Shown in pieces: positions 20,085 through 43,917 of a stretch of DNA of 64,000 nt. Source of the stretch: Haloferula sp. BvORR071. Lineage in GTDB: Bacteria; Verrucomicrobiota; Verrucomicrobiia; Verrucomicrobiales; Akkermansiaceae. Every line of letters begins with the position of its first letter. Within the stretch, counting starts at the first letter, position 1. The stretch lies in the NCBI RefSeq assembly GCF_000739615.1, contig NZ_BATP01000036.1:1-64000 (forward strand), written 5' to 3'. A model generated the notes under the pieces. That model saw only the letters and a list, made by a program, of their open reading frames with translations. It was not told the origin of the DNA and did no database searches. The translations under genes and the position numbers were made by a program.

Positions 20085-20672
20085 ATGAAAGCGCTTGTTC
20101 TTGTCAGTCTCGTCGGGGTCATGGGTCTCACGGCGCGTGCCGATGAAGCCGCTGACCTCGCGGCGATCCGCGAACGCTACGCCAAGATTGGCCAAGCGAA
20201 GGAGGTCAAGACCGAGACCATCAAGTTCGAGATGGAGAGCGGGCCGCTTGATGGCACACTGACCCGCCGCAGCTACGAAGGGGGATTGTCCGCCGTGCAA
20301 CTCAGCTATTCCGAAGGGGACCACGGTGGCACGGACGAGAACTACTACTTCTCCGAAGGGAAACTCTTCTTCATCCTGGTCAAGGACTCGAGCTGGCAAT
20401 TCGCGCCGGGATCCACCGACGACAAGCCCAAGACGATCGATACTCTGACCGAGTCCCGCTACTATGTGAACAAGGGCGCGATCGTCCAGGTGTTGCGGCG
20501 CAGCCTGACTGCGGAGGGTAGCAAGAAGCTCGAGGGCTCGATCGCCAAGGTCGAGAACAAGAAGGTCACCGACGACGAGATGGGGAGGATCTACCTGAAG
20601 CGCGCCGCCGTCTTGCTGACTCTGAAGACGAAGGAAGAAGTGGAGAAGATGTTCGCGGCGGAGGAGTCGTGA
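20085..20672 (+). CDS. Exported hypothetical protein
   Basis: 195 residues from the ATG at 20085 (MKALVLVSLVGVMGLTARA signal peptide). The mature part is alpha/beta, with IRERYAKIGQAKEVKTETIKFE, a Tyr/Phe-rich central part (DENYYFSEGKLFFILVKDSSW) and a helical Lys/Glu-rich end. No family recognised. It lies directly after the GH89 gene on the same strand and may be co-transcribed. It converges with the MNIO cassette with a 15-base gap. Confidence 0.6.
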   Translation: MKALVLVSLVGVMGLTARADEAADLAAIRERYAKIGQAKEVKTETIKFEMESGPLDGTLTRRSYEGGLSAVQLSYSEGDHGGTDENYYFSEGKLFFILVKDSSWQFAPGSTDDKPKTIDTLTESRYYVNKGAIVQVLRRSLTAEGSKKLEGSIAKVENKKVTDDEMGRIYLKRAAVLLTLKTKEEVEKMFAAEES

Positions 20673-20687: not shown

Positions 20688-21572
20688 TCACTCGTCCATC
20701 GCCATCGCTTGCGAGGCCATCTCCGCCACGCCGCTCCAGTCCTCGTTGTCGCCCACCTTCAGCTCGATCACCTCGCTGCCGCGGGTCGTGATCCAGCCGC
20801 GCGATTGCCACTCTGCGAACCACTCCTGCACTTCTTCGGGAGTTGGCTCTGTCGCCATTGGCTTCGCAAAGAGCTCCTCCAAGGTGCCACCTTCACGCAT
20901 CCGCAGCAGCAGTTCATGCTCCAGCGCATCCAGCCGCACCATGTGTGCTCCATTGCTGCCGCGCCACACCGCGACGCAAGTGGCCTCATCTTCAACCGGC
21001 TCGAACTCACCCCAGCCGTGGCAGAGATGCGCTGGCACCGGCAAGGAGACCAAGCGCACGTGCGGTTGAAGCTCCAGCTCCGCGACCGCCAGTTGCTCCG
21101 GTGGCAAGGGCTCGCGTTCTGCCGCCTCGAAGGCCTCCATCGCCGCGTACTCCAGCTCCGCCAGCGCGCCAAACCAGCGCCGCCGCGTTTCGTCCAAGCC
21201 TGGCCACTTCGCCACGAAGCCCGCCACCCGCGAGCCCAGATGCCGCAGCGTGTAGCTGCGCGAGGGATGCATCAGCAGGTAGGCTTCTAGCAGCTCCCAG
21301 AACTTCTCCTCGCCCGCCATCCGTCGCAGCACCGGAAAGTCATCTGCCAGCGAGTCCAGCACGCGGAACCAGTATTGCCGGTGGTAGAGCTCCAGCCGCT
21401 CCGCGGAGGACAGATTGTCCCCCGCCGCCATCAGCTCCTCGGCCCTTGTTAGGAATTCTTCCGAGTGTCCTTCATCGCTCGGCGGCAGATCCGTGCTGGC
21501 ACGGCTGGTCCCGCGCAGAGGCATCTGCAAAGCCGCGAAGAAGGCCTTCTGGGTTTCTTCAAGCGGCCGCAT
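20688..21572 (-). CDS. MNIO partner protein, HvfC/BufC-like (DUF2063)
   Basis: 294 residues. The N-terminus (ETQKAFFAALQMPL) and the region LSSAERLELYHRQYWFRVLDSLADDFPVLRRMAGEEKFWEL are the DUF2063 signature of the HvfC/BufC/MbnC-type partner proteins that bring RiPP precursors to DUF692 enzymes. The C-terminal 110 residues are an extra alpha/beta region resembling a winged-helix (VRLDALEHELLLRMREGGTLEELF). It overlaps the MNIO gene by 14 bases. Role in the cassette is precursor recognition and formation of the active complex. Confidence 0.85.
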   Translation of the reverse strand: MRPLEETQKAFFAALQMPLRGTSRASTDLPPSDEGHSEEFLTRAEELMAAGDNLSSAERLELYHRQYWFRVLDSLADDFPVLRRMAGEEKFWELLEAYLLMHPSRSYTLRHLGSRVAGFVAKWPGLDETRRRWFGALAELEYAAMEAFEAAEREPLPPEQLAVAELELQPHVRLVSLPVPAHLCHGWGEFEPVEDEATCVAVWRGSNGAHMVRLDALEHELLLRMREGGTLEELFAKPMATEPTPEEVQEWFAEWQSRGWITTRGSEVIELKVGDNEDWSGVAEMASQAMAMDE

Positions 21573-22422
21573 TTTCCTGTCTCTTGGCGATCGCAGCAGC
21601 GCGCCAGGTTTCCGATTTCTTCGCCTCGGACCACACTTCGTCGAAGGAGGGGATCCGCCCGTCCCATTCTAACAGCGTGGCCACGTGCCCGCAGCGCTCG
21701 ATCGCCCGCTCGTAGAGCTTCCACACTGGATCGATCACCGGGTGGTCGTGCGTATCGACGACGAAGCGCTTGTAGTGCGAGTGCCCGGCGATGTGGATCT
21801 GCGCCACCCGCTCCGGCGGCACGAAGTTCACATACTCCATCGGGTCGAAGCCGTTGTTGATGGAGGACACGTAGATGTTGTTCACGTCGAGCAAGATCCC
21901 GGTGTCCGCCAGCTCGCAAACCTCCGCGAGGAACTGCCACTCGGTCATCTGGTTATCCTTGAACTCGCCGTAGCTGCTGACGTTTTCCATCGCCAACGGC
22001 ACTTCCAGAAAGTCCTGCGCGATCCGCAGGTTCTCGGCGGTCTTCTTCGCCGCCTCGAAGGTGAAGGGAATCGGCAGCAGGTCATGGCTCATGCTGCCAT
22101 CCACGCTGCCCCAGCACAGGTGATCGGAGATCCACGGCGTCTTCGTCCGCCGCACCAGCCGCTTCAGTCGCCGCAGGTGGTCGAACTTAATTCCGCCCGC
22201 ATCGCCGGGATACATCCCCACGCCATGCTGGACCACCGTGTATTGATCGAGAATCCGGTCGAGCACCGCGAGCGAGCGCCCGCCCTCGACCATGTAGTTC
22301 TCCGAGATGATCTCAAACCAGCCGACCGCCGGCTTCTCGGATAGGATGTGATTGTAGTGCGGCACCCGCAGGCCGATGCCTGTGGCCAATTCAACACCTG
22401 AGGTGAACCGTGGATCGCTCAT
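21559..22422 (-). CDS. MNIO-family (DUF692) multinuclear iron oxidase, HvfB/BufB-like
   Basis: 287 residues forming one TIM-barrel DUF692 domain. All the expected metal-ligand positions are visible: E41 (SENYM), H66 (VQHGVG), D100-H101 (SDHL), H113, E146-N147 (AMENVSS), D179-N181 (LDVNN), H210/H214 (HIAGHSH), D223-H227 (DTHDH) and E252. MNIOs use two or three irons and O2 to rearrange Cys (or Asp) of peptide precursors, giving oxazolone/thioamide, thiooxazole or related groups. Upstream lies a repetitive Cys precursor and downstream its partner, so it is predicted active on that peptide. Confidence 0.9.
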   Translation of the reverse strand: MSDPRFTSGVELATGIGLRVPHYNHILSEKPAVGWFEIISENYMVEGGRSLAVLDRILDQYTVVQHGVGMYPGDAGGIKFDHLRRLKRLVRRTKTPWISDHLCWGSVDGSMSHDLLPIPFTFEAAKKTAENLRIAQDFLEVPLAMENVSSYGEFKDNQMTEWQFLAEVCELADTGILLDVNNIYVSSINNGFDPMEYVNFVPPERVAQIHIAGHSHYKRFVVDTHDHPVIDPVWKLYERAIERCGHVATLLEWDGRIPSFDEVWSEAKKSETWRAAAIAKRQENAAA

Positions 22423-22458
22423 CGCTCGCTCCTTGCCGCACTCCTGCTCAAAGGACGG

Positions 22459-22490
22459 AAAAACCCCGCGGCACCAAGTTGGCCGCGGGG
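22459..22490 (-). terminator. Terminator/attenuator between precursor and MNIO gene
   Basis: On the minus strand CCCCGCGGC pairs with GCCGCGGGG around a nine-base loop, followed by TTTTT (plus-strand AAAAA at 22459-22463). It lies after the precursor stop and before the MNIO start, so most transcripts should end after the precursor and only read-through would supply the enzymes. This is common where a peptide must greatly exceed its modifying enzyme. Confidence 0.85.
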
Positions 22491-22515
22491 CGATCCGAAA
22501 ATTGCGGTGGAACGA

Positions 22516-23050
22516 TCAGAGGATCGCTACCAGTTCCTTTTCCTTCTTCTTGTCCTTATCCGGGCAGTCTTCCTTGTCCTTCTTCTTCTCGTCGGCAGCA
22601 AGGGTCACTTCCTTTTCCTTCTTCTTGTCCTTATCCGGGCAGTCTTCCTTGTCCTTCTTCTTCTCGTCGGCAGCAAGGGTCACTTCCTTCTCCTTCTTCT
22701 TGTCCTTGTCCGGGCAGTCCTCCTTGTCCTTCTTCTTCTCGTCGGCGACGAGGATTACTTCCTTCTCCTTCTTCTTGTCCTTGTCCGGGCAGTCCTCCTT
22801 GTCCTTCTTCTTCTCGTCGGCAACGAGGATCACTTCCTTCTCCTTCTTCTTGTCCTTGTCCGGGCAGTCCTCCTTGTCCTTCTTCTTTTCGTCGGCGACG
22901 AGGATCACTTCCTTCTCCTTCTTCTTGTCCTTGTCCGGGCAGTCGTCCTTATCCTTCTCCTTTTTCTCGGCGAGGATCATCTCCTTCTTCTCCTTGTCCT
23001 TGCCGGGGCAGTCATCCTTCTCCTTGTCCTTGCCGGCGAGGCGAGGAGCG
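22516..23050. repeat. 75-bp in-frame tandem repeat array inside the precursor
   Basis: The GGGCA of the Cys-Pro codons recurs on the plus strand at about 22562, 22637, 22712, 22787, 22862, 22937 and 23006: five spacings of exactly 75 and one of 69. The units are near-identical in DNA and differ mainly at the VILVA/VTLAA hydrophobic patch, where two units share one version and three the other, which points to recent unit duplication. Unit copy number probably varies among strains. Confidence 0.9.
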
Positions 23051-23121
23051 GCGTGAGCGAAGGGAGCGGCAGCAAAGGCGCCGGCGATAGCGGCGGCCAC
23101 GAGTGCGTTCGAGGCTTTCAT
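22516..23121 (-). CDS. Exported repetitive Cys-peptide: candidate MNIO RiPP precursor
   Basis: 201 residues. MKASNALVAAAIAGAFAAAPFAHA is a Sec signal peptide with AHA cleavage. The mature 177 residues hold seven Cys, every one in an Asp-Cys-Pro motif. They are spaced by one 23-residue and five 25-residue units of the form DCPDKDKKKEKE, VILVA or VTLAA, DEKKKDKE. Each 25-mer has nine Lys and nine Asp/Glu, so it is a charge-balanced polyampholyte with one short hydrophobic patch. A signal peptide as leader, Cys repeats and the next two genes (MNIO, DUF2063) define it as the cassette's substrate. The core motif is not one I know from bufferins (DUF2282) or EGKCG-type HvfA. It ends ELVAIL. Confidence 0.75.
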   Translation of the reverse strand: MKASNALVAAAIAGAFAAAPFAHAAPRLAGKDKEKDDCPGKDKEKKEMILAEKKEKDKDDCPDKDKKKEKEVILVADEKKKDKEDCPDKDKKKEKEVILVADEKKKDKEDCPDKDKKKEKEVILVADEKKKDKEDCPDKDKKKEKEVTLAADEKKKDKEDCPDKDKKKEKEVTLAADEKKKDKEDCPDKDKKKEKELVAIL

Positions 23122-23157
23122 TGGGTTGCGTCGTTTGGTGGTTTTGGTTCGTCACAG

Positions 23158-23215
23158 GGAACCTCTCGGGTTCCGAGCGCTTCCGGTAGGATTCTCCGCC
23201 GCTTGGAATATTCCA
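23158..23215. promoter_or_regulatory. Palindrome and hairpin between precursor and GNAT genes
   Basis: TGGAATATTCCA (23204-23215) is a perfect 12-bp palindrome, and GGAACC/GGTTCC (23158-23174) is a second short inverted repeat nearer the precursor start. They lie in the 173-base divergent region that must hold the promoter of the RiPP cassette, so the palindrome is a candidate operator for a metal or stress sensor. No regulator gene is adjacent. Confidence 0.4.
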
Positions 23216-23294
23216 GCAGTTTTCACAGCATCGTTCGGATGGGGGTATCCGGGTATGAGCTAAAAACTCGTGGCTCCCGCGGCAATCCGCCGCC

Positions 23295-24215
23295 ATGCTC
23301 CCTCGCATGACCGTCCGGCCCATGAAATCCGGTGAGGAAGCCGAGATCGCCGCCCTCATCTACCGCTCCACCAACTCTTGGTATCAGTCCAAGCTCGGTC
23401 ACGAAATCTTCACCGGGAAGCCGGAGGACTGCCGCATTTTCGTCGATACCTACGAGATCCTCGACCCCGGCTGCTGTTTGGTGGCGGAAGGGGAGGATGG
23501 CAAAATCGCCGGGTCCTGCTTCTACCACCCGCGCGAGACCCACGTCGGCCTCGGCATCATGAATGTCGTCCCGGACCAGACCGGCAAGGGCGTGGCCAAG
23601 GCTCTCTTGGCGGAAGTCATTGAAAAGGCCGGGGATCTCCCGGTCCGCCTGCTCTCCAGCGCCCTCAATCTCGAATCCTTCTCGCTCTACACCCGGGCGG
23701 GCTTCGGCCCCGTCTCCGTCTATCACGACATGCGCTTCCCGGTGGACCACAAGCTGCCGCCGCCGCCGATTGGTCCTGGTGTGGTGAGACTGGCAAATAC
23801 CGAGCACCTCTTCGGCATGGTCGATCTGGAGGAGGAGATCGCCGGCATCCGCCGCAGCAAAGACCTCTCCTACTTCCTCCGCAGCCAAGGCGGACACTGG
23901 ACCACCTTCGTCCATCTCGATCCTTCGGGAAAAATCGACGGTTGGCTCGCCTCGGTCGACCACCCGGGCTGCCGGATGCTCGGCCCCGGCGTCATGCGGG
24001 ATGAGAACGCTGCGCTGGCCCTGATCCACATGCAGCTCAGCCAAGCCCGTGGCGGCACCCCGGTCTTCCTGATCCAGACCCACGAGTCCTGGTTGGTCGC
24101 GGAACTCTACAAGTGGGGTGCCCGCAATGTGGAACTCCACTTCGCCCAAGTTCGCGGATCCTTCTCCCAGCCCCAGGGCATCATCATGCCCAGCTTCCTG
24201 CCGGAGAGCGGCTGA
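23295..24215 (+). CDS. GNAT-family N-acetyltransferase, two-domain
   Basis: 306 residues. The N-terminal half is a GNAT domain with the acetyl-CoA motif IMNVVPDQTGKGVAKALLAE and the tail LESFSLYTRAGF. The C-terminal half (about 150-300) looks like a second degenerate GNAT-type domain, including WTTFVHLDPSGKIDGWLASV and HESWLVAELYKWGARNVELHF. The substrate is unknown. It is divergent from the RiPP precursor, so a functional link is possible but not shown. Confidence 0.8.
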   Translation: MLPRMTVRPMKSGEEAEIAALIYRSTNSWYQSKLGHEIFTGKPEDCRIFVDTYEILDPGCCLVAEGEDGKIAGSCFYHPRETHVGLGIMNVVPDQTGKGVAKALLAEVIEKAGDLPVRLLSSALNLESFSLYTRAGFGPVSVYHDMRFPVDHKLPPPPIGPGVVRLANTEHLFGMVDLEEEIAGIRRSKDLSYFLRSQGGHWTTFVHLDPSGKIDGWLASVDHPGCRMLGPGVMRDENAALALIHMQLSQARGGTPVFLIQTHESWLVAELYKWGARNVELHFAQVRGSFSQPQGIIMPSFLPESG

Positions 24216-36989: not shown

Positions 36990-37582
36990 AGGCGTATTAT
37001 TTTAGAATAATGACGGTCAGGCAAGCCAATTGTCGGTCGCCGAGGGGTGCGGCGGAGGCAACTGGCAAGGGGGGGGACGAGCCTCTTGTCAGCGCAAAGT
37101 GTGCCGGAATCAAGTGCTCAATTGTGACGCGATCACGTAAGTGTAGTAAGCCGGAGAATGATATTTCGTGCCATCCGTCACCCACTCGCGGCTGATAAGA
37201 TCAAGGCTCCCACCACGTTTCTGCCGCGTTGAACCTTTGGATTGGTTACGGAAATGACGACTAACTCCTCGAAAAAAGGCTGGTCCATCGGGCCTCGCTT
37301 TTTTAAAAGCCTCCGCGAACGTCCTCGTGGCCGCGCATACGTGGGGGAGCTTATCCGCGGCACACATTGAGATTTTCTGGTCCGTAGATCCCCCTTGGAC
37401 TTCACCGGTCCAAGCAGGAACCCTGCGGGCCTTGGTTATGGTTCCATATCCTGATTCATGACTCCCCTCCCATGATCTGCTCCCTCCCCCAGCATAGTTC
37501 GCCGCCGCCCCCGTTCTTGGCGTGATCCGTGCTTCCTGACACATGGCTTGAAGGTTCGCCTGCCCCCCAGTCCGAGTCCCGA
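36990..37582. other. 593-base divergent gap
   Basis: The gap separates the starts of the giant minus-strand gene and the first FG-GAP gene and must hold both promoters. A frame of 161 codons on the minus strand (37110-37595) crosses the FG-GAP start and shows no family pattern, so it was not called. Apart from short inverted repeats such as GGACTTCACCGGTCC near 37390-37410 and a G-run at 37070, nothing was recognised. Confidence 0.4.
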
Positions 37583-40500
37583 ATGTCCCGGTCATCCCCC
37601 CTCTCTCCGTTCTCTCGTGTGATCGGCGTCCTCGCTTGGACAGTCGTTGGCGCAGGGATCTTGCACGCGCAGGTGCCGGACACCTTGCGCTACTCCTTCT
37701 TCGCGCCCAAGACCCTGCCCCAGCAATCCGAGCAGCAAGGGACTTGCCTGGCGGTCTCGGGCAGCGTCGCCGTGGTCGGTTCTCCGGCTTACAATTTCGA
37801 TGCGCTCAGTGGCTTGGACTGCGGCGCGGTGAAGATCTACGACACCGCCACCGGCAAGCTGCTCCACCGCTTGGAGAATCCCGCCGCCGAGCCCTTCGGC
37901 GAGTTCGGCACCAGTGTCGCGATCTCTGGCCCGATCGTTGCCGTTGGCTCCTGCAACACGGTCGCAGGCCAGCGAGCCGCTGGCTGCGTTTATATCTACG
38001 ATCTGTCTTCGCAGACTCCCGCCGTCCCGCTCTTCACCTTGGAGAATCCGAACCCCGCGGGGCACGACCAGTTCGGTCATTCGGTCGCCGTGTCCGGGAA
38101 TACCGTGGTGGTCGGTGCTTGGATGGATGACTCTACCGCGGCCAATTCCGGCACCGTTTACGTTTACAATCTTGGCTCAGGACAGCCGGCGCAGCCGCAA
38201 CTGACCCTGCCGAACCCGACTCCCGCGGATGATGATAACTTCGGCGCCGCCGTGGCCGTCTCCGGCAACCGCGTCGCCGTGTGCGCCTACCGCGATGACA
38301 CCGGCGCCACCAATGCCGGCCGCGTCTATATCTTCAATCTCAATTCCGGCACCCCGACCATTCCTCAGTACTCCTTCGGCAAGACCTCACCGGCGGACAA
38401 CGACTGCCTCGGCAATGCCTTGGCGATGGACGGCAATCTCGTCGCTGTCGGCGTGGAGTGCGCGGACTCGGCCGTCCTCAATTCCGGCAGCGTGATCGTC
38501 TACGATCTCTCCCTGCCGGATCCCAATGTGCCGCGCCTGAGTCTCGTCCCACCGGTAGCCCACGCGAACGACTACTTCGGCACCGCCGTGGCACTATCCG
38601 GGAACCGCCTCGCCGTTGGTTGCTACCGGGACGACGCCGCCGCGGAGAACGCCGGCACCGCCTTCGTCTACGATCTCGCCGGCGGCACTCCGGCTGTCCC
38701 GGTCGCCTCGCCGGACAAGCCGCTGCCCGCCGCCGCCGACTACTTTGGGAACGCCGTGGCCATTTCCGGCACCACTGTCCTGGTCGCCGCCTGGCACGAT
38801 GACAAGGGCGACCTCGAGTCCGGTGCGACCTACATTTACAGCCTCACCTCGCCGACTCCGGATACCTCTCTGCTGGCCTTGGACAGCCCGGTCGCCGGCT
38901 CCGTGGATCGCTTTGGTGCCGCAGTTGCGGTCGATGGCAACCTGATGCTGATCGGTTCTCCAGGCACCGATGCGGGCGCCTCCGGTGCCGGCCGTGTCCG
39001 CGTCCACGACCTCGCCGCCTCCAAGCCCACCAATGTGCTGGCGACCTTGGAAGACCCCGCGCCTGACATGGATGAGAATTTCGGCGCCGCCGTGGCCATC
39101 TCGGGTACCATCGTGGTCGTCGGCGGCCCGGGTGAGGACTCAGGGGCCGAAGGCGCCGGGCGGGTCTACGTTTACGACCTCGCCCATCTGCCGGACACCT
39201 CGCCGATCCTGGTCATCTCCAACCCCGCGCCCGGGGTGGGGGACCGCTTCGGCAGCGCGGTCTCCATCTCCGGTAGCACCATCGTCGTCGGCTGCGAGAG
39301 CGATGATGCGGGGGCCACCGACTCCGGCACCGTCTATGTTTACAAACTGAATCCCCCGAACTCCGGGCTGCCGGTCTACACGATTCCCAATCCCAGCCCC
39401 GCGGCGGACGACCACTTCGGCAGCGCGCTGGCGATCTCGGGAAACCGCATCGTGATCGGCGCAGTGAAGGATGACTCCGCTGCCACGGATGCGGGTATCG
39501 CCTATGTCTTCGATCTGGCCGGGGCTAGCCCTACCGTGCCGCTCTATGTTTTGGCCAATCCCACTCCGGTCGCGGACGATGGCTTCGGCAATGCGGTCGG
39601 CATCTCCGGCAATACCGTGGCCGTGGCGGCCAGCGGCAAGGACACCGGCGCGGTCAATGCCGGCGTGGTCTATGTCTACAATCTCGCCGGTGGCACGCCG
39701 ACAGCTCCGCTCTACACGCTTCTGAATCCCGATCCCTCCGGGGATGACCGCTTTGGCAATGCCGTCGCCGTTTCCGAACCGCGCGTGGTTGTCGGCTGCT
39801 ATCTCGACAACTCGCCCACTGACTCCGGCCGCGCTTATTCCTTCAACATGAGTTCGCCGACTCCCACGGTCTCGTCGGCGACCCAGAAGAAGAGCACCGC
39901 CACCGGCGGTGACCAGTTCGGTGCCGCGGTCGCAGTCTCCGGCCTCACCGTCCTAGTTGGTTGCCCCTCGGACAATCGCACTGCCAATGACAAGGGCGCG
40001 GCCTACGTCTTCGGCCCGGCAGCTCCGGAAATCGCCGTCGAAATTTCCGGCCAGGAAATCCTCACCGGGGAATCGACCAGCCTCGGTCCGGTCCCCATGG
40101 GCCCGGGTGGCGGCGGCAGCATCACCGTCAATGTCCTCAACACCGGCATCACCAGTCTGAACCTCTCCAGTATCACGGTCGTGGGGGGTAATGCCGCCGA
40201 CTTCTCGATCAGCACCTCTGGCATGAGCTCGAATGTCGCGGCGGATGACGATACCCATTTCACCGTCACCTTGAATCCCTCCGCCTCCGGGCTCCGCAGC
40301 ACCACCCTGCGCATCCAGAACAGTGACTTCGATGAAGGGATCTTCCTGATCCAGCTCTCAGGACGGGCGCTCTCCGTCACTGAGGATACTGATGGTGATG
40401 GCCTCAATGATGTTTCCGAATTCCGCATGGCCGGGCTTGGCTTCGACTGGCAGGTGCCGAACCCCGCACTCGTCGCCGCCTACCAGAGTTACTTCAACAG

Positions 40501-40735
40501 CGGCAGCCTCTTTGAGCCCAATCGCGTCCAGGCCCTGCGCATGAAAGCACCCGAGTTCACCCGCAATTCCACGACCGGCCAAGCCAAGCTCACGATGTCT
40601 CTCCAGAAATCGACGGACCTGCAGACCTACCAAGCTCTGGTCTTGCCGACGCCCGTGATCAATTCCGCCGGCGAGCTGGAGTTCCAATTTCCCGTTTCTG
40701 ACAACGCCGCCTTCTACCGCTTGGAGATGAAGTAA
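37583..40735 (+). CDS. Exported FG-GAP/choice-of-anchor D protein, tandem paralog 1
   Basis: 1050 residues from the ATG at 37583. Signal peptide SRVIGVLAWTVVGAGILHAQ, then about 14 FG-GAP-type beta-propeller repeats of 55-65 residues (typical core FGAAVAVSGNRVAVCAYRDD, with YVYNL edges), then a choice-of-anchor D-like domain (about 832-945; AADFSISTSGMSS), then a D-rich calcium site (DTDGDGLNDVSEF) and a C-terminal YRLEMK sorting-like tail. Paralog 2 begins 17 bases later, so the pair is a recent tandem duplication. Likely surface adhesin or scaffold. Confidence 0.85.
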   Translation: MSRSSPLSPFSRVIGVLAWTVVGAGILHAQVPDTLRYSFFAPKTLPQQSEQQGTCLAVSGSVAVVGSPAYNFDALSGLDCGAVKIYDTATGKLLHRLENPAAEPFGEFGTSVAISGPIVAVGSCNTVAGQRAAGCVYIYDLSSQTPAVPLFTLENPNPAGHDQFGHSVAVSGNTVVVGAWMDDSTAANSGTVYVYNLGSGQPAQPQLTLPNPTPADDDNFGAAVAVSGNRVAVCAYRDDTGATNAGRVYIFNLNSGTPTIPQYSFGKTSPADNDCLGNALAMDGNLVAVGVECADSAVLNSGSVIVYDLSLPDPNVPRLSLVPPVAHANDYFGTAVALSGNRLAVGCYRDDAAAENAGTAFVYDLAGGTPAVPVASPDKPLPAAADYFGNAVAISGTTVLVAAWHDDKGDLESGATYIYSLTSPTPDTSLLALDSPVAGSVDRFGAAVAVDGNLMLIGSPGTDAGASGAGRVRVHDLAASKPTNVLATLEDPAPDMDENFGAAVAISGTIVVVGGPGEDSGAEGAGRVYVYDLAHLPDTSPILVISNPAPGVGDRFGSAVSISGSTIVVGCESDDAGATDSGTVYVYKLNPPNSGLPVYTIPNPSPAADDHFGSALAISGNRIVIGAVKDDSAATDAGIAYVFDLAGASPTVPLYVLANPTPVADDGFGNAVGISGNTVAVAASGKDTGAVNAGVVYVYNLAGGTPTAPLYTLLNPDPSGDDRFGNAVAVSEPRVVVGCYLDNSPTDSGRAYSFNMSSPTPTVSSATQKKSTATGGDQFGAAVAVSGLTVLVGCPSDNRTANDKGAAYVFGPAAPEIAVEISGQEILTGESTSLGPVPMGPGGGGSITVNVLNTGITSLNLSSITVVGGNAADFSISTSGMSSNVAADDDTHFTVTLNPSASGLRSTTLRIQNSDFDEGIFLIQLSGRALSVTEDTDGDGLNDVSEFRMAGLGFDWQVPNPALVAAYQSYFNSGSLFEPNRVQALRMKAPEFTRNSTTGQAKLTMSLQKSTDLQTYQALVLPTPVINSAGELEFQFPVSDNAAFYRLEMK

Positions 40736-40752
40736 GCTCCCCGCCGCTTGTG

Positions 40753-43700
40753 ATGTCCTCCTCCCTCCGCCAGCCGCTGTACCGTGTCGCCTCAGGATGC
40801 TTCCTGGGAGCCTTGGCTGCATGCAGTCTGTTGCAGGCCGCGCCGATTCCTTATTCACTTGAGAATACCTTCCTGTCACCGGCTACCGCCCGCCAGCTCA
40901 ACACCCAGTTGGGCTATTCGGTGGCAGTGGACGGCAGCTATCTGGTGATTGCCTCGCCTTTCGATGACACCGGCGGGGAAGACAGCGGCATCGTCGGCAT
41001 CTACAGCTCCACCACCGGTGCCCTGATTTACAGTCTCGCCAATCCCGAGCCTTCTACCCAAGCGGTCTTCGGCTGGTCCGTTGCGGTGTCTGGCAACTAC
41101 GTCGTCATCGGCGTGAAGGATGACGATACCGGGGCGGGGGACACTGGCATCGTCTATGTCTACAACATGGCCTCGGCCACGCCCGCCGTTCCGGCCTTTG
41201 TCCTGCAGAATCCGGACCCCAAGGAGAATGACTCCTTCGGCTACGCGGTGGCCATCTCGGGCAACCGGGTGCTGGTCGGAGCCCCCTATGGTGATGTCGG
41301 CAATGCCGACTTGGGCAAGGCCTATGTCTTCGATCTCTCCTCCGGCACTCCCGCCCAGCCGGTCCTGTCTTTGCAGAACCCGCTCGCATCGGGCCTGAAC
41401 TTCGGCCTGGCGGTGGCCATCTCGGGAAGCCGGGTGGTGATCGGTGCCCCGCAGGATACGCTCGCAAGCGGCGATCTCAGCCGCGCCTACGTCTATGACC
41501 TGAGCTCCGGCACGCCCCAGACTCCTCTGGCCAGCTATGCCGATGGCAGCCCGGCCAGCAACGAGCGTTTCGGTTGGGCCGTGGCGGCCGCTGGCAACCG
41601 CGTGGCGATCAGTGCCCCGCAGCACGATGCCGGCGCCGACAATGCCGGCGCTTGCTATCTCTACGACTTCGCCTCCGGCACACCGGCTGTGCCCGCCGCC
41701 GCCATTACCAATCCCAATCCCGGCCTCGCCGACGAGTTCGGCTTCTCGGTCTCGATGTCCGGCAACCGCTTGGTGCTCGGCAATCACTTGGATGACCAGA
41801 ACAACGCCGACTCCGGCCGGGTCTATGTCTATGACTTGGCTTCAGGTTGGCCGGTGTTGATCTCCACACTGGAAAATCCAACTCCCCAGAGTGGTGATAA
41901 CTTCGGTCGCTCGGTCTGCGTCTCAGGCAGCAAGTTGCTCACCGCGGCCCATGGTGACAACACCGGTGGCAGCGATGTCGGCACGGCCTACCTTTTCGAT
42001 TTCTCGGGTTCCCCGCCCACGGCTCCGGCCCTCTCCATCAATACCCCCAGCATCTCCTCGGAGGAGGAGTTCGCCACCGCCACCGCTATCTGGGGCTCGA
42101 TCATCGTGGTCGGTGCCCACCATGACGACAAGGGCAGCAATTCCAACTGCGGCACCGTCTACATCTACGACCGTCTCTCGCCCACGCCGAATGTCCCGAC
42201 CCTGATCATCGACAACCCGGCACCCAATACCAACGACTACTTCGGAGCGGCCGTCGCGATCGATGGCAACCGGGTGGTGGTCGGTGCCTATCAGGACGAT
42301 GTTCCCACGACCAACTCCGGCGTCGTCTATGTCTACGACCGCAGCTCCGCCACGCCCGGCACGCCGGTGCTGACCATCCTCAATCCTTCTCCCGCGGCGC
42401 AGGACCAGTTCGGCAACGCCTTGGCCTTGTCTGGATCGCGGCTGGTGGTGGGCTGTGCCCGCAATGACATCGGTGCCGTCTCCGATGCCGGCAGCGCCTA
42501 CGTCTATGAGTTGGCTTCCGGCACTCCCACGCAGCCCATCGCCGTCCTCGATAATCCCGCACCGGCTGTGGAAGATCTCTTCGGCTACTCGGTTGCCGTC
42601 TGTGGCTCCCAGGTTCTGGTGGGCGCGTATAACAACGACACCGGCGCGCCCAATGCCGGCAGTGCCTATCTCTACGATCTATCGAGCGCCAACCCCTTGG
42701 TGCCCATCGCCACCTTCGACAATCCCGCCCCCACCACGGATGACTTCTTCGGCCACGCCGTGGGCTTGTCCGTGGATTGGGCAGTGATCGGCGCGCATCT
42801 CAATGACACTGGAGCCCGCGATGCCGGTAGCGCCTATGTCTACTCGCTGGCGGATCTGCCCGGCACCTCTCCCTTCCTCGTGCTCCATAACCCCGATCCT
42901 AATCCCGAGGACACCTTCGGCTTCTCTGTCGCCATTTCCGGTTCTCGCATCGCGATCGGCGGCCCGGAGATTGACGATGGCGCTGTCGATTCCGGCGGCG
43001 TCTATGTCTACGATATGACCTCGGCTACTCCGGCTGTACCCGTCGACGTGCTCGACTGTTTGGACCATCGGGCTGGCGATCTCTTCGGCTTCAATGTCGC
43101 CGTTTATAACGATAACATTGTCGTCGGCGCGCCCTTGGATGACGGCGCCAGCTTTGACCGTGGCGCTGCTTATTTCTTCGATCCGGATCCGCCCTCACCG
43201 CAGATGCAGGTCGAGCAACCGCCCGGCACCGGTCTGATCAGTGGCTCGGCCAGCATCCACTTTGGCAATGCTCCCGTGAACCAGCCTGGCGATACCCAGA
43301 CCGTGGTCCTCCGCAACGTCGGCACCGCCCCGATGACCGTTACCGGCATCCAGTTGCTGTCGGGCGATACCGCGGACTTCTCCGTCCAGCGTCCCGGCTT
43401 GCCGCGGACGCTGATGGTGGATGAGACCGCAGCCTTTGATGTCGGCTTCGTCCCGCAGGCCGTTGGCAGCCGCCTCGCCGTGCTGCGGATCACCGGCAAT
43501 GCCACCAACCATCCTTCCTTCGATGTCACCCTCACCGGCCAATCGCTGGGACTCGACCACGACACCGATGGCGATGGCCTGAACGACGTGCTCGAACTCC
43601 AGCTCTCCTCACTTGGCTTCGACTGGCAGGTCAACGATGAGGAGCTCGTGGCCATCCTCCAGGCCGGCGCAAACGTCACGGGCGTCTATTCAGTGGCCCA

Positions 43701-43917
43701 GCTCCAGGCCATGCATCCCGGCATGCCACTGGTCCCGGTCAATCTAAGCAGCCACCAGCTCAAGCTCACCGTGGGCATCAAGAAATTCACCGGTCTGTCC
43801 CCCTTGCAGCTCCTGCCGGTTGTCGCCGGCCAAGCCGTCATCAACGGCCAGGGTAAGCTTGAGTTCACCTTCCCGTCCCCCGAGCGCGCGGCCTTCTATC
43901 AGCTCGATCCACGCTGA
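40753..43917 (+). CDS. Exported FG-GAP/choice-of-anchor D protein, tandem paralog 2
   Basis: 1054 residues from the ATG at 40753, with signal SGCFLGALAACSLLQAAPIP. The domain order repeats paralog 1: FG-GAP blades (FGWSVAVSGNYVVIGVKDDD pattern), a choice-of-anchor D-like domain (about 815-930; DTADFSVQRPG), the calcium motif DTDGDGLNDVLELQLSSLGFDWQV shared almost exactly with paralog 1, and an AAFYQLDPR end. Divergence is greatest in the blades, as expected for a duplicated adhesin. Confidence 0.85.
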   Translation: MSSSLRQPLYRVASGCFLGALAACSLLQAAPIPYSLENTFLSPATARQLNTQLGYSVAVDGSYLVIASPFDDTGGEDSGIVGIYSSTTGALIYSLANPEPSTQAVFGWSVAVSGNYVVIGVKDDDTGAGDTGIVYVYNMASATPAVPAFVLQNPDPKENDSFGYAVAISGNRVLVGAPYGDVGNADLGKAYVFDLSSGTPAQPVLSLQNPLASGLNFGLAVAISGSRVVIGAPQDTLASGDLSRAYVYDLSSGTPQTPLASYADGSPASNERFGWAVAAAGNRVAISAPQHDAGADNAGACYLYDFASGTPAVPAAAITNPNPGLADEFGFSVSMSGNRLVLGNHLDDQNNADSGRVYVYDLASGWPVLISTLENPTPQSGDNFGRSVCVSGSKLLTAAHGDNTGGSDVGTAYLFDFSGSPPTAPALSINTPSISSEEEFATATAIWGSIIVVGAHHDDKGSNSNCGTVYIYDRLSPTPNVPTLIIDNPAPNTNDYFGAAVAIDGNRVVVGAYQDDVPTTNSGVVYVYDRSSATPGTPVLTILNPSPAAQDQFGNALALSGSRLVVGCARNDIGAVSDAGSAYVYELASGTPTQPIAVLDNPAPAVEDLFGYSVAVCGSQVLVGAYNNDTGAPNAGSAYLYDLSSANPLVPIATFDNPAPTTDDFFGHAVGLSVDWAVIGAHLNDTGARDAGSAYVYSLADLPGTSPFLVLHNPDPNPEDTFGFSVAISGSRIAIGGPEIDDGAVDSGGVYVYDMTSATPAVPVDVLDCLDHRAGDLFGFNVAVYNDNIVVGAPLDDGASFDRGAAYFFDPDPPSPQMQVEQPPGTGLISGSASIHFGNAPVNQPGDTQTVVLRNVGTAPMTVTGIQLLSGDTADFSVQRPGLPRTLMVDETAAFDVGFVPQAVGSRLAVLRITGNATNHPSFDVTLTGQSLGLDHDTDGDGLNDVLELQLSSLGFDWQVNDEELVAILQAGANVTGVYSVAQLQAMHPGMPLVPVNLSSHQLKLTVGIKKFTGLSPLQLLPVVAGQAVINGQGKLEFTFPSPERAAFYQLDPR

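Follow-up and report, generated by a model that had tools for sequence, protein, structure and literature searches.

What kind of product is made where an exported peptide with seven Asp-Cys-Pro motifs is encoded next to a multinuclear non-heme iron-dependent oxidative enzyme (MNIO) and a DUF2063 protein? Such a set of genes, here called A, B and C, lies at positions 20,688–23,121 of the window, that is, the whole 64,000-nucleotide stretch of Haloferula sp. BvORR071 (contig NZ_BATP01000036.1, positions 1–64,000) that was analyzed, and a first-pass annotation had taken it for a probable new type of ribosomally synthesized and post-translationally modified peptide (RiPP). That claim was overstated, because B passes the cut-off of the bufferin maturase BufB model, the predicted structure of C resembles 3DEE and TglI, both solved partner proteins, and the orthologous loci of neighboring species hold precursors intermediate between the CKGK and DCP types. 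Judged from sequence, ABC appears to derive from the Buf2 (Cys-Lys) branch of bufferins/captophorins, as a form that is specific to a single Verrucomicrobiota family and diverged within it. Its novelty lies in the substrate, where (mostly, in the window's genus) each interval between hydrophobic patches holds one Cys, and this Cys is followed by Pro.

The locus comprises the following features:
20688–21572 (−): gene C, 294 aa; partner protein with DUF2063 and a region like a RiPP recognition element, PME type 1
21559–22422 (−): gene B, 287 aa; MNIO, BufB-type
22516–23121 (−): gene A, 201 aa, ATG start; predicted exported precursor, seven Asp-Cys-Pro modules, C-terminal Ile-Leu
22534–23025 (−): 75-bp tandem repeat coding the modules of A, 6.6 copies, score 739
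23050–23121 (−): signal peptide of A, MKASNALVAAAIAGAFAAAPFAHA, assigned by eye; nearest relatives start alike, MKxxNALVAAAxAG
23187–23215 (−): ECF-like promoter element upstream of A (ECF, extracytoplasmic function), conserved; TGGAATAWTCC ... GAATCNTA

The open reading frames (ORFs) of the window place the three genes on one strand as first described, with B and C overlapping by 14 bp, and together with the domain matches they bear out the bufABC order of precursor, MNIO and DUF2063 partner. In A, the DCP motifs stand at residues 37, 60, 85, 110, 135, 160 and 185, a spacing of 23, 25, 25, 25, 25 and 25, and the underlying tandem repeat is far beyond chance. Given a 24-residue signal peptide ending in AHA, read by eye and not by a signal-peptide program, the mature part has 177 residues, among them 61 Lys, 61 acidic residues (34 Asp and 27 Glu) and 7 Cys; the repeat period and mature length reported earlier are confirmed by this residue count. 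Each module runs from a patch through a Lys/acid arm, DCP and a second Lys/acid arm to the next patch. The patch had been given as a single VILVA in every unit, which is true of three units, while two carry VTLAA and the first MILA. Pairwise, the five full 25-mers differ by 2–6 synonymous changes (about 12 synonymous sites) and 0–2 non-synonymous ones (about 63 sites); since the differences are mostly synonymous, the protein sequence of the units is kept. An AlphaFold model of A alone (mean predicted local distance difference test, pLDDT, 41.5, with no secondary structure), fits a disordered chain but, being a single-sequence run, has little weight.

B matches PF05114 at 329.6 bits and the NCBI BufB model NF050167 at 325.9 bits, above the curated cut-off of 310, and remains below the cut-offs of the HvfB-type model (228.6 bits against 360) and of the MbnB model (32 bits against 325). 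Its ligand positions, mapped from the VcMbnB list (PMC8888699) via alignments to the 3BWW, TglH and MbnB chains, are H66, H101, E146, D179, N182, H210, D223, H225 and E252, with D254 as the base and Gly255 at the adjacent substrate-selectivity site, as located in PMC13097082. The iron ligands and catalytic Asp of the MNIO superfamily are thereby all kept in the alignments, as the annotation had said of the metal ligands, and B is 85–93% identical across the six other genomes of the genus that hold it. C, described from the outset as a DUF2063 partner, does match DUF2063 (PF09836; 56.3 bits, cut-off 27.2), with scores under the cut-offs for NGO1945_C (20 bits, cut-off 27) and NF050145 HvfC (just 48 bits, cut-off 142). 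In a Foldseek search of the Protein Data Bank (PDB), its AlphaFold model (pLDDT 85.8, 26 sequences) has 3DEE as best match (E 1.5e-6, template modeling (TM) score on the target 0.73), followed by TglI (8hci, 8hi7). The modeled fold matches that of these solved MNIO partner proteins, and C combines the DUF2063 domain with the NGO1945-like fold of PME type 1. A Cys-containing precursor beside an MNIO and a PME1 protein, the arrangement of captophorins, is likewise present.

A graded series of substrates is seen at orthologous loci (numbered with L), where precursors were read upstream of each MNIO and chosen by a motif rule, by which unusual ones were perhaps missed. Within the family these run from CKGKDGCKGKDGCKG clusters, by way of CNGKDGCPGKD, to DDCPGK cores that stand singly. 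Precursors of genus g10 have CKGKDGCKGKDGCKGE-like clusters and L013 has CKGKEGCKGK, L011 joins CNGKDGCPGK and CNGKDGCEGK, and L014 and L015 (cores EGCPGKDGCPGK and EGCPGKDGCKGK) contain CPGK, CKGK and CSGK within one peptide; Cys-Pro is exclusive in L009, L010 and L012 (g13) and in L003–L006 and L008 (g1), the latter with DDCPGK/DDCPDK cores. By sequence the signal peptides look alike along the series. In the counts and the tree, from which L024 (picked frame spurious) and L025 are excluded and for which L026 and L027 gave no MNIO frame, Pro follows 36 of the 95 Cys inside the clade as against none of 429 outside it (73 distinct related precursors), where Lys leads (316/429). Internal hydrophobic patches separate the Cys groups in 17 of 19 distinct clade precursors (exceptions L021 and L022), and 18 of the 19 end in Ile-Leu, against 0/73 outside; these two measures are reported in place of module alternation, which is partly a product of our own rule of merging Cys with no patch between them. 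In the window's genus there is mostly one Cys between recurring patches, and single-Cys intervals run throughout L003, L004, L005, L006 and L008. If the CKGK clusters are ancestral, which is an assumption on a tree rooted at its midpoint, Cys groups would have shrunk from 3–5 Cys to a single one per module while the number of modules rose.

Relatives of B (E ≤ 1e-20) were found in 25 of 195 family genomes, four of them distant (30–47% identity), and homologues of A (E ≤ 0.001) in 11, all of which belong to the 25; a precursor homologue in a genome devoid of an MNIO, which the first-pass annotation had named as an argument against its own proposal, did not occur in the family (11/11 genomes have both). 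Within the window's genus B is present in 7 of 18 genomes, and A, B and C stand together in those relatives whose loci were read. MNIOs at loci of the host's family are identical to named records from Luteolibacter pohnpeiensis and Akkermansiaceae bacteria. Searches with A at order level found it in 10/288 genomes, and at phylum level nine of 337 matched, five being clear genus or family members. The sixth, L148 (G520, of the host's class but outside the family), is the one credible match outside the family at phylum level: its repeat precursor is of Cys-Lys type (CKGKDGCKGK...) and immediately precedes an MNIO whose base site reads Asp-Asp. The weak matches L149, L150 and L151, whose richest charged stretches hold 0, 1 and 0 Cys, are not precursor-like and were dropped. 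Of 286 genomes of the class, the five that contain a DNA pattern for D-C-P-[GDE]-K-D-K all belong to the genus of the window, and a direct contig search with A gave 226 stretches that fit a pattern, none confirmed as a relative.

The host, a 7.8-Mb draft genome, has two MNIO genes. The second belongs to L001 (G000:C60, ~101–104 kb), where DoxX, a six-Cys CKGK precursor, an MNIO 65% identical to B and a DUF2063 gene form what is, as predicted from these genes, a canonical Buf2-type set. At another canonical cluster, L029 (G064:C4:312314-313162), the MNIO match has one in-frame TGA; a shorter open frame was also read, and this is maybe an end effect. Exported arrays also occur on their own, with no adjacent MNIO, in two g13 genomes (L066, 1677–2174; L067, 2035–2493, minus strand) that carry an MNIO elsewhere; their unit is EKCKDGEKCKDKDKEKGTLAGNDG, a Cys-Lys repeat that is KCKDGEKCKDKDKEKGTLAGNDGE-like, and a GGGAATATTTTTCA element lies upstream of both. 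The genes flanking these arrays are, from their sequences, what we take to be tgt-like and NUDIX-like. Stand-alone bufferin genes have been described (PMC12452194).

The 29-bp element upstream of A reads TGGAATATTCC...GAATCCTA, and its pattern, drawn from genus sequences, has one match in the whole genome at ≤3 mismatches. TGGAAT occupies the aligned place in 12/12 upstream regions, these being chosen from 26 extracted, with g10, second-cluster and orphan regions excluded; among all 26 it occurs in 14, off the aligned place in L055 and L067, and L054 is without it. The two-block form presumably resembles that of ECF promoters, in line with the ECF gene in g10 operons. These operons (L061–L064, four long-flank loci; five genomes with the MNIO) run precursor, DoxX-like, ECF-like, MNIO, DUF2063, and between precursor and MNIO they also have a small CxxC gene, possibly an anti-sigma factor; the DoxX and sigma domains were confirmed by Pfam in L063 alone. 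A search of the window's genome with the ECF protein of L063, run without a positive control, gave nothing at E ≤ 1e-8.

We regard it as probable that ABC is a Buf2-branch bufferin/captophorin-type operon making a periplasmic copper (or soft-metal) buffer; metal buffering, already favored by the annotation for its Sec-exported peptide, is the likeliest predicted role. While A is still cytoplasmic, B and C would carry out a four-electron oxidation of the Cys in every module, giving a heterocycle that binds copper and is most likely a 5-thiooxazole, with the hydrophobic patch of the module possibly acting as a docking strand for the partner protein. One such strand per module would let the enzyme process chains regardless of their length, and modules could duplicate freely. 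A would then be exported by Sec to the periplasm, where, soluble, highly charged and for the most part without structure, it would buffer copper (or a soft metal) at one site in each module. Expression would probably be switched on from a stress-responsive promoter of ECF type.

Modification of A is favored because A, B and C are conserved together, and Pro narrows the chemistry. Pro has no N-H, and the β-lactam step leading to oxazolone-thioamide would use the N-H on the residue that follows Cys, so this product is unlikely here. The β-lactam step itself is a proposal of PMC8888699, which also describes the catalytic Asp of MbnB as hydrogen-bonding the amide nitrogen of the residue after Cys. 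By our own chemical reasoning, a 5-thiooxazole ring requires the carbonyl before Cys and not an N-H after it. Copper-binding 5-thiooxazoles are reported for bufferin 1, oxazolin and fontiphorin (PMC13097082, PMC13419390, PMC12452194), whose makers are close BufB/HvfB relatives, and it has lately been disputed whether some MNIO products are oxazolone-thioamides or 5-thiooxazoles (PMC13097082). With Pro after every Cys, A is a clean test case in a natural substrate: Pro being barred from the β-lactam route proposed for methanobactin, modification of A would speak against a need for the N-H after Cys.

Several observations weigh against a Buf2-branch copper buffer. A matches no BufA family in Pfam and NCBI profile searches, and no Pfam entry at E 0.1, DUF2282 included; for the BufA2 profile NF050166 this failure is a weak test, because 8/8 canonical CKGK precursors tried also reach just 28–44 bits, under the cut-off of 60. 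Neither a DoxX nor a regulator gene adjoins the cluster, by ORFs and a domain search of the window, and the rule of one Cys per patch interval fails in the g13 Cys-Pro precursors L009, L010 and L012 and in L011. Repeat variants with Pro were not processed by FonBC, which was intolerant of it at all sites (PMC13097082), and for this reason one cannot take for granted that Cys-Pro is modified. The residue that follows the catalytic Asp is reported to be Phe in enzymes of the Lys-Cys type and Asp in those of the Cys-Lys type, and to bear on the residues that flank Cys (PMC13097082); it is mostly Asp in canonical relatives and Ala or Gly in the window's clade, with Gly in all eight entries whose precursors are mostly Cys-Pro. 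Across 109 loci (107 with an MNIO frame, 97 with a precursor chosen by the motif rule and 10 without one; genomes held twice counted twice), Lys follows at least half of the Cys, yes versus no, in 64/3 cases with Asp, 8/8 with Ala and 3/8 with Gly, plus one yes each for Glu, Gln and Asn. Striking as these raw counts look, the co-variation is not counted as evidence for enzyme–substrate co-adaptation, because of the double counting and because a link between the loss of Asp and the loss of Lys after Cys is not supported once kinship is allowed for (three independent pairs on starred branches, none agreeing). In a tree built by a quick method, the Asp loss maps to the family clade as a whole, in which some members retain Cys-Lys substrates; g10 enzymes have Ala with Cys-Lys substrates still, and three Gly entries (two distinct precursors: L013, repeated as L073, and L068) are mostly Cys-Lys. 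We read the loss of Asp next to the base as at most a permissive change.

From the Pro block of FonBC and the absent N-H it follows that the clade enzyme works differently or that the peptide is unmodified. In the latter case A would be exported as it is and bind metal by its free thiols and carboxylates, as a periplasmic metallothionein would, with B and C serving another precursor or being relics. Apart from Pro blocking the studied MNIO, this is favored by the stand-alone repeat precursors of two genomes and by L001, whose complete cluster includes a canonical CKGK precursor, on account of which A could be dispensable; yet B is strongly conserved across the genus genomes that hold it, with its catalytic positions kept, A, B and C stay together in the relatives read, and every family genome with a precursor has an MNIO, so we hold it distinctly unlikely. 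Somewhat less probable still is that B modifies Cys-Pro to a product other than 5-thiooxazole, a new MNIO reaction. The tertiary amide of Pro would remove the contact of the catalytic Asp seen in MbnB (PMC8888699) and fix the backbone, FonBC does not tolerate it, Gly replaces Phe or Asp after the base, and Cys-Pro is absent from the 73 related precursors outside the clade; however, a 5-thiooxazole makes no demand on an N-H after Cys, and the mixture of Cys-Lys and Cys-Pro within L014 and L015 suggests one reaction for both. Practically negligible is the idea that the repeat ORF is not a gene and that an antisense ORF rich in Leu/Val, 22507–23310 (+), encodes the actual product: its 267-aa frame is open, but most differences between repeats are synonymous when read in the frame of A, homologues keep this frame, the signal peptide and the C-terminus though the Cys pattern changes, and the conserved element lies upstream of A.

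A tentative and rather unlikely reading is a self-contained RiPP module, whose 25-residue unit would combine its own recognition strand (the patch) with a single Cys-Pro core, whose chain would lengthen by tandem duplication under one MNIO pair, and whose enzyme would dispense with the MbnB contact through an active site altered by Gly beside the base, possibly giving an undescribed product. ABC is of value for testing ideas on MNIO chemistry and on modular RiPP evolution, and soluble tandem modules might be used to design copper binders.

As for the surroundings, a GNAT acetyltransferase gene (23295–24215, +) lies divergently upstream of A and is kept in 4/4 g1 loci with full flanks (L048–L051). 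A protein of 195 aa that has a signal-like start and matches no family (20085–20672, +) is convergent with C and near the cluster in two of these four loci, and two neighboring FG-GAP repeat proteins, each >1000 aa, occupy 37529–43917 (+).

Set against known systems, methanobactin (MbnABC) shares the enzyme superfamily and metal ligands, but its precursor has no Sec signal, its oxazolone-thioamide chemistry would use the N-H after Cys, and B lies far under the MbnB cut-off. PMC12452194 describes Buf1, Buf2, EGKCG and CxxxxC families, and regards hundreds of small signal-peptide ORFs with 1–18 Cys before MNIO genes as probably further precursors; its first collection took signal-peptide precursors of <200 residues, against 201 in A. 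Titles and abstract openings found mention neither Cys-Pro MNIO substrates nor this precursor, and Table S2 of PMC12452194 may list A. The annotation had called the substrate unlike DUF2282 bufferins and EGKCG peptides, which stands, as A has no such match, but it had overlooked the Buf2/Cys-Lys branch. Buf1 bufferins (DUF2282) resemble A as exported MNIO products that buffer copper (PMC12452194), whereas A lacks both a DUF2282 match and the four-Cys domain. Oxazolin and fontiphorin (Lys-Cys captophorins) have short one-Cys repeats, many sites and an MNIO with PME1, and bind copper through 5-thiooxazoles in the members studied (PMC13097082); their unit is the 5-residue EGKCG with Gly after Cys, compared with 25 residues in A, whose sequence has no EGKCG repeat, and their MNIO has Phe next to the base where B has Gly. 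With Buf2/BufA2 (NF050166; Cys-Lys captophorins), the cluster shares a Sec signal peptide, Lys richness, the precursor–MNIO–DUF2063 order and a BufB-type MNIO, and the linking relatives add CxGK-type Cys motifs. Buf2 has a six-Cys domain with Lys after Cys; in A, the six (or twelve) conserved Cys of a single domain give way to seven single-Cys modules of 23–25 residues with Pro after Cys, a hydrophobic patch per module and a C-terminal Ile-Leu, and NF050166 is not matched. Although its precursor sequence falls outside every named group tested, the window's cluster would thus belong within the bufferin frame by enzyme, partner, gene order and ancestry.

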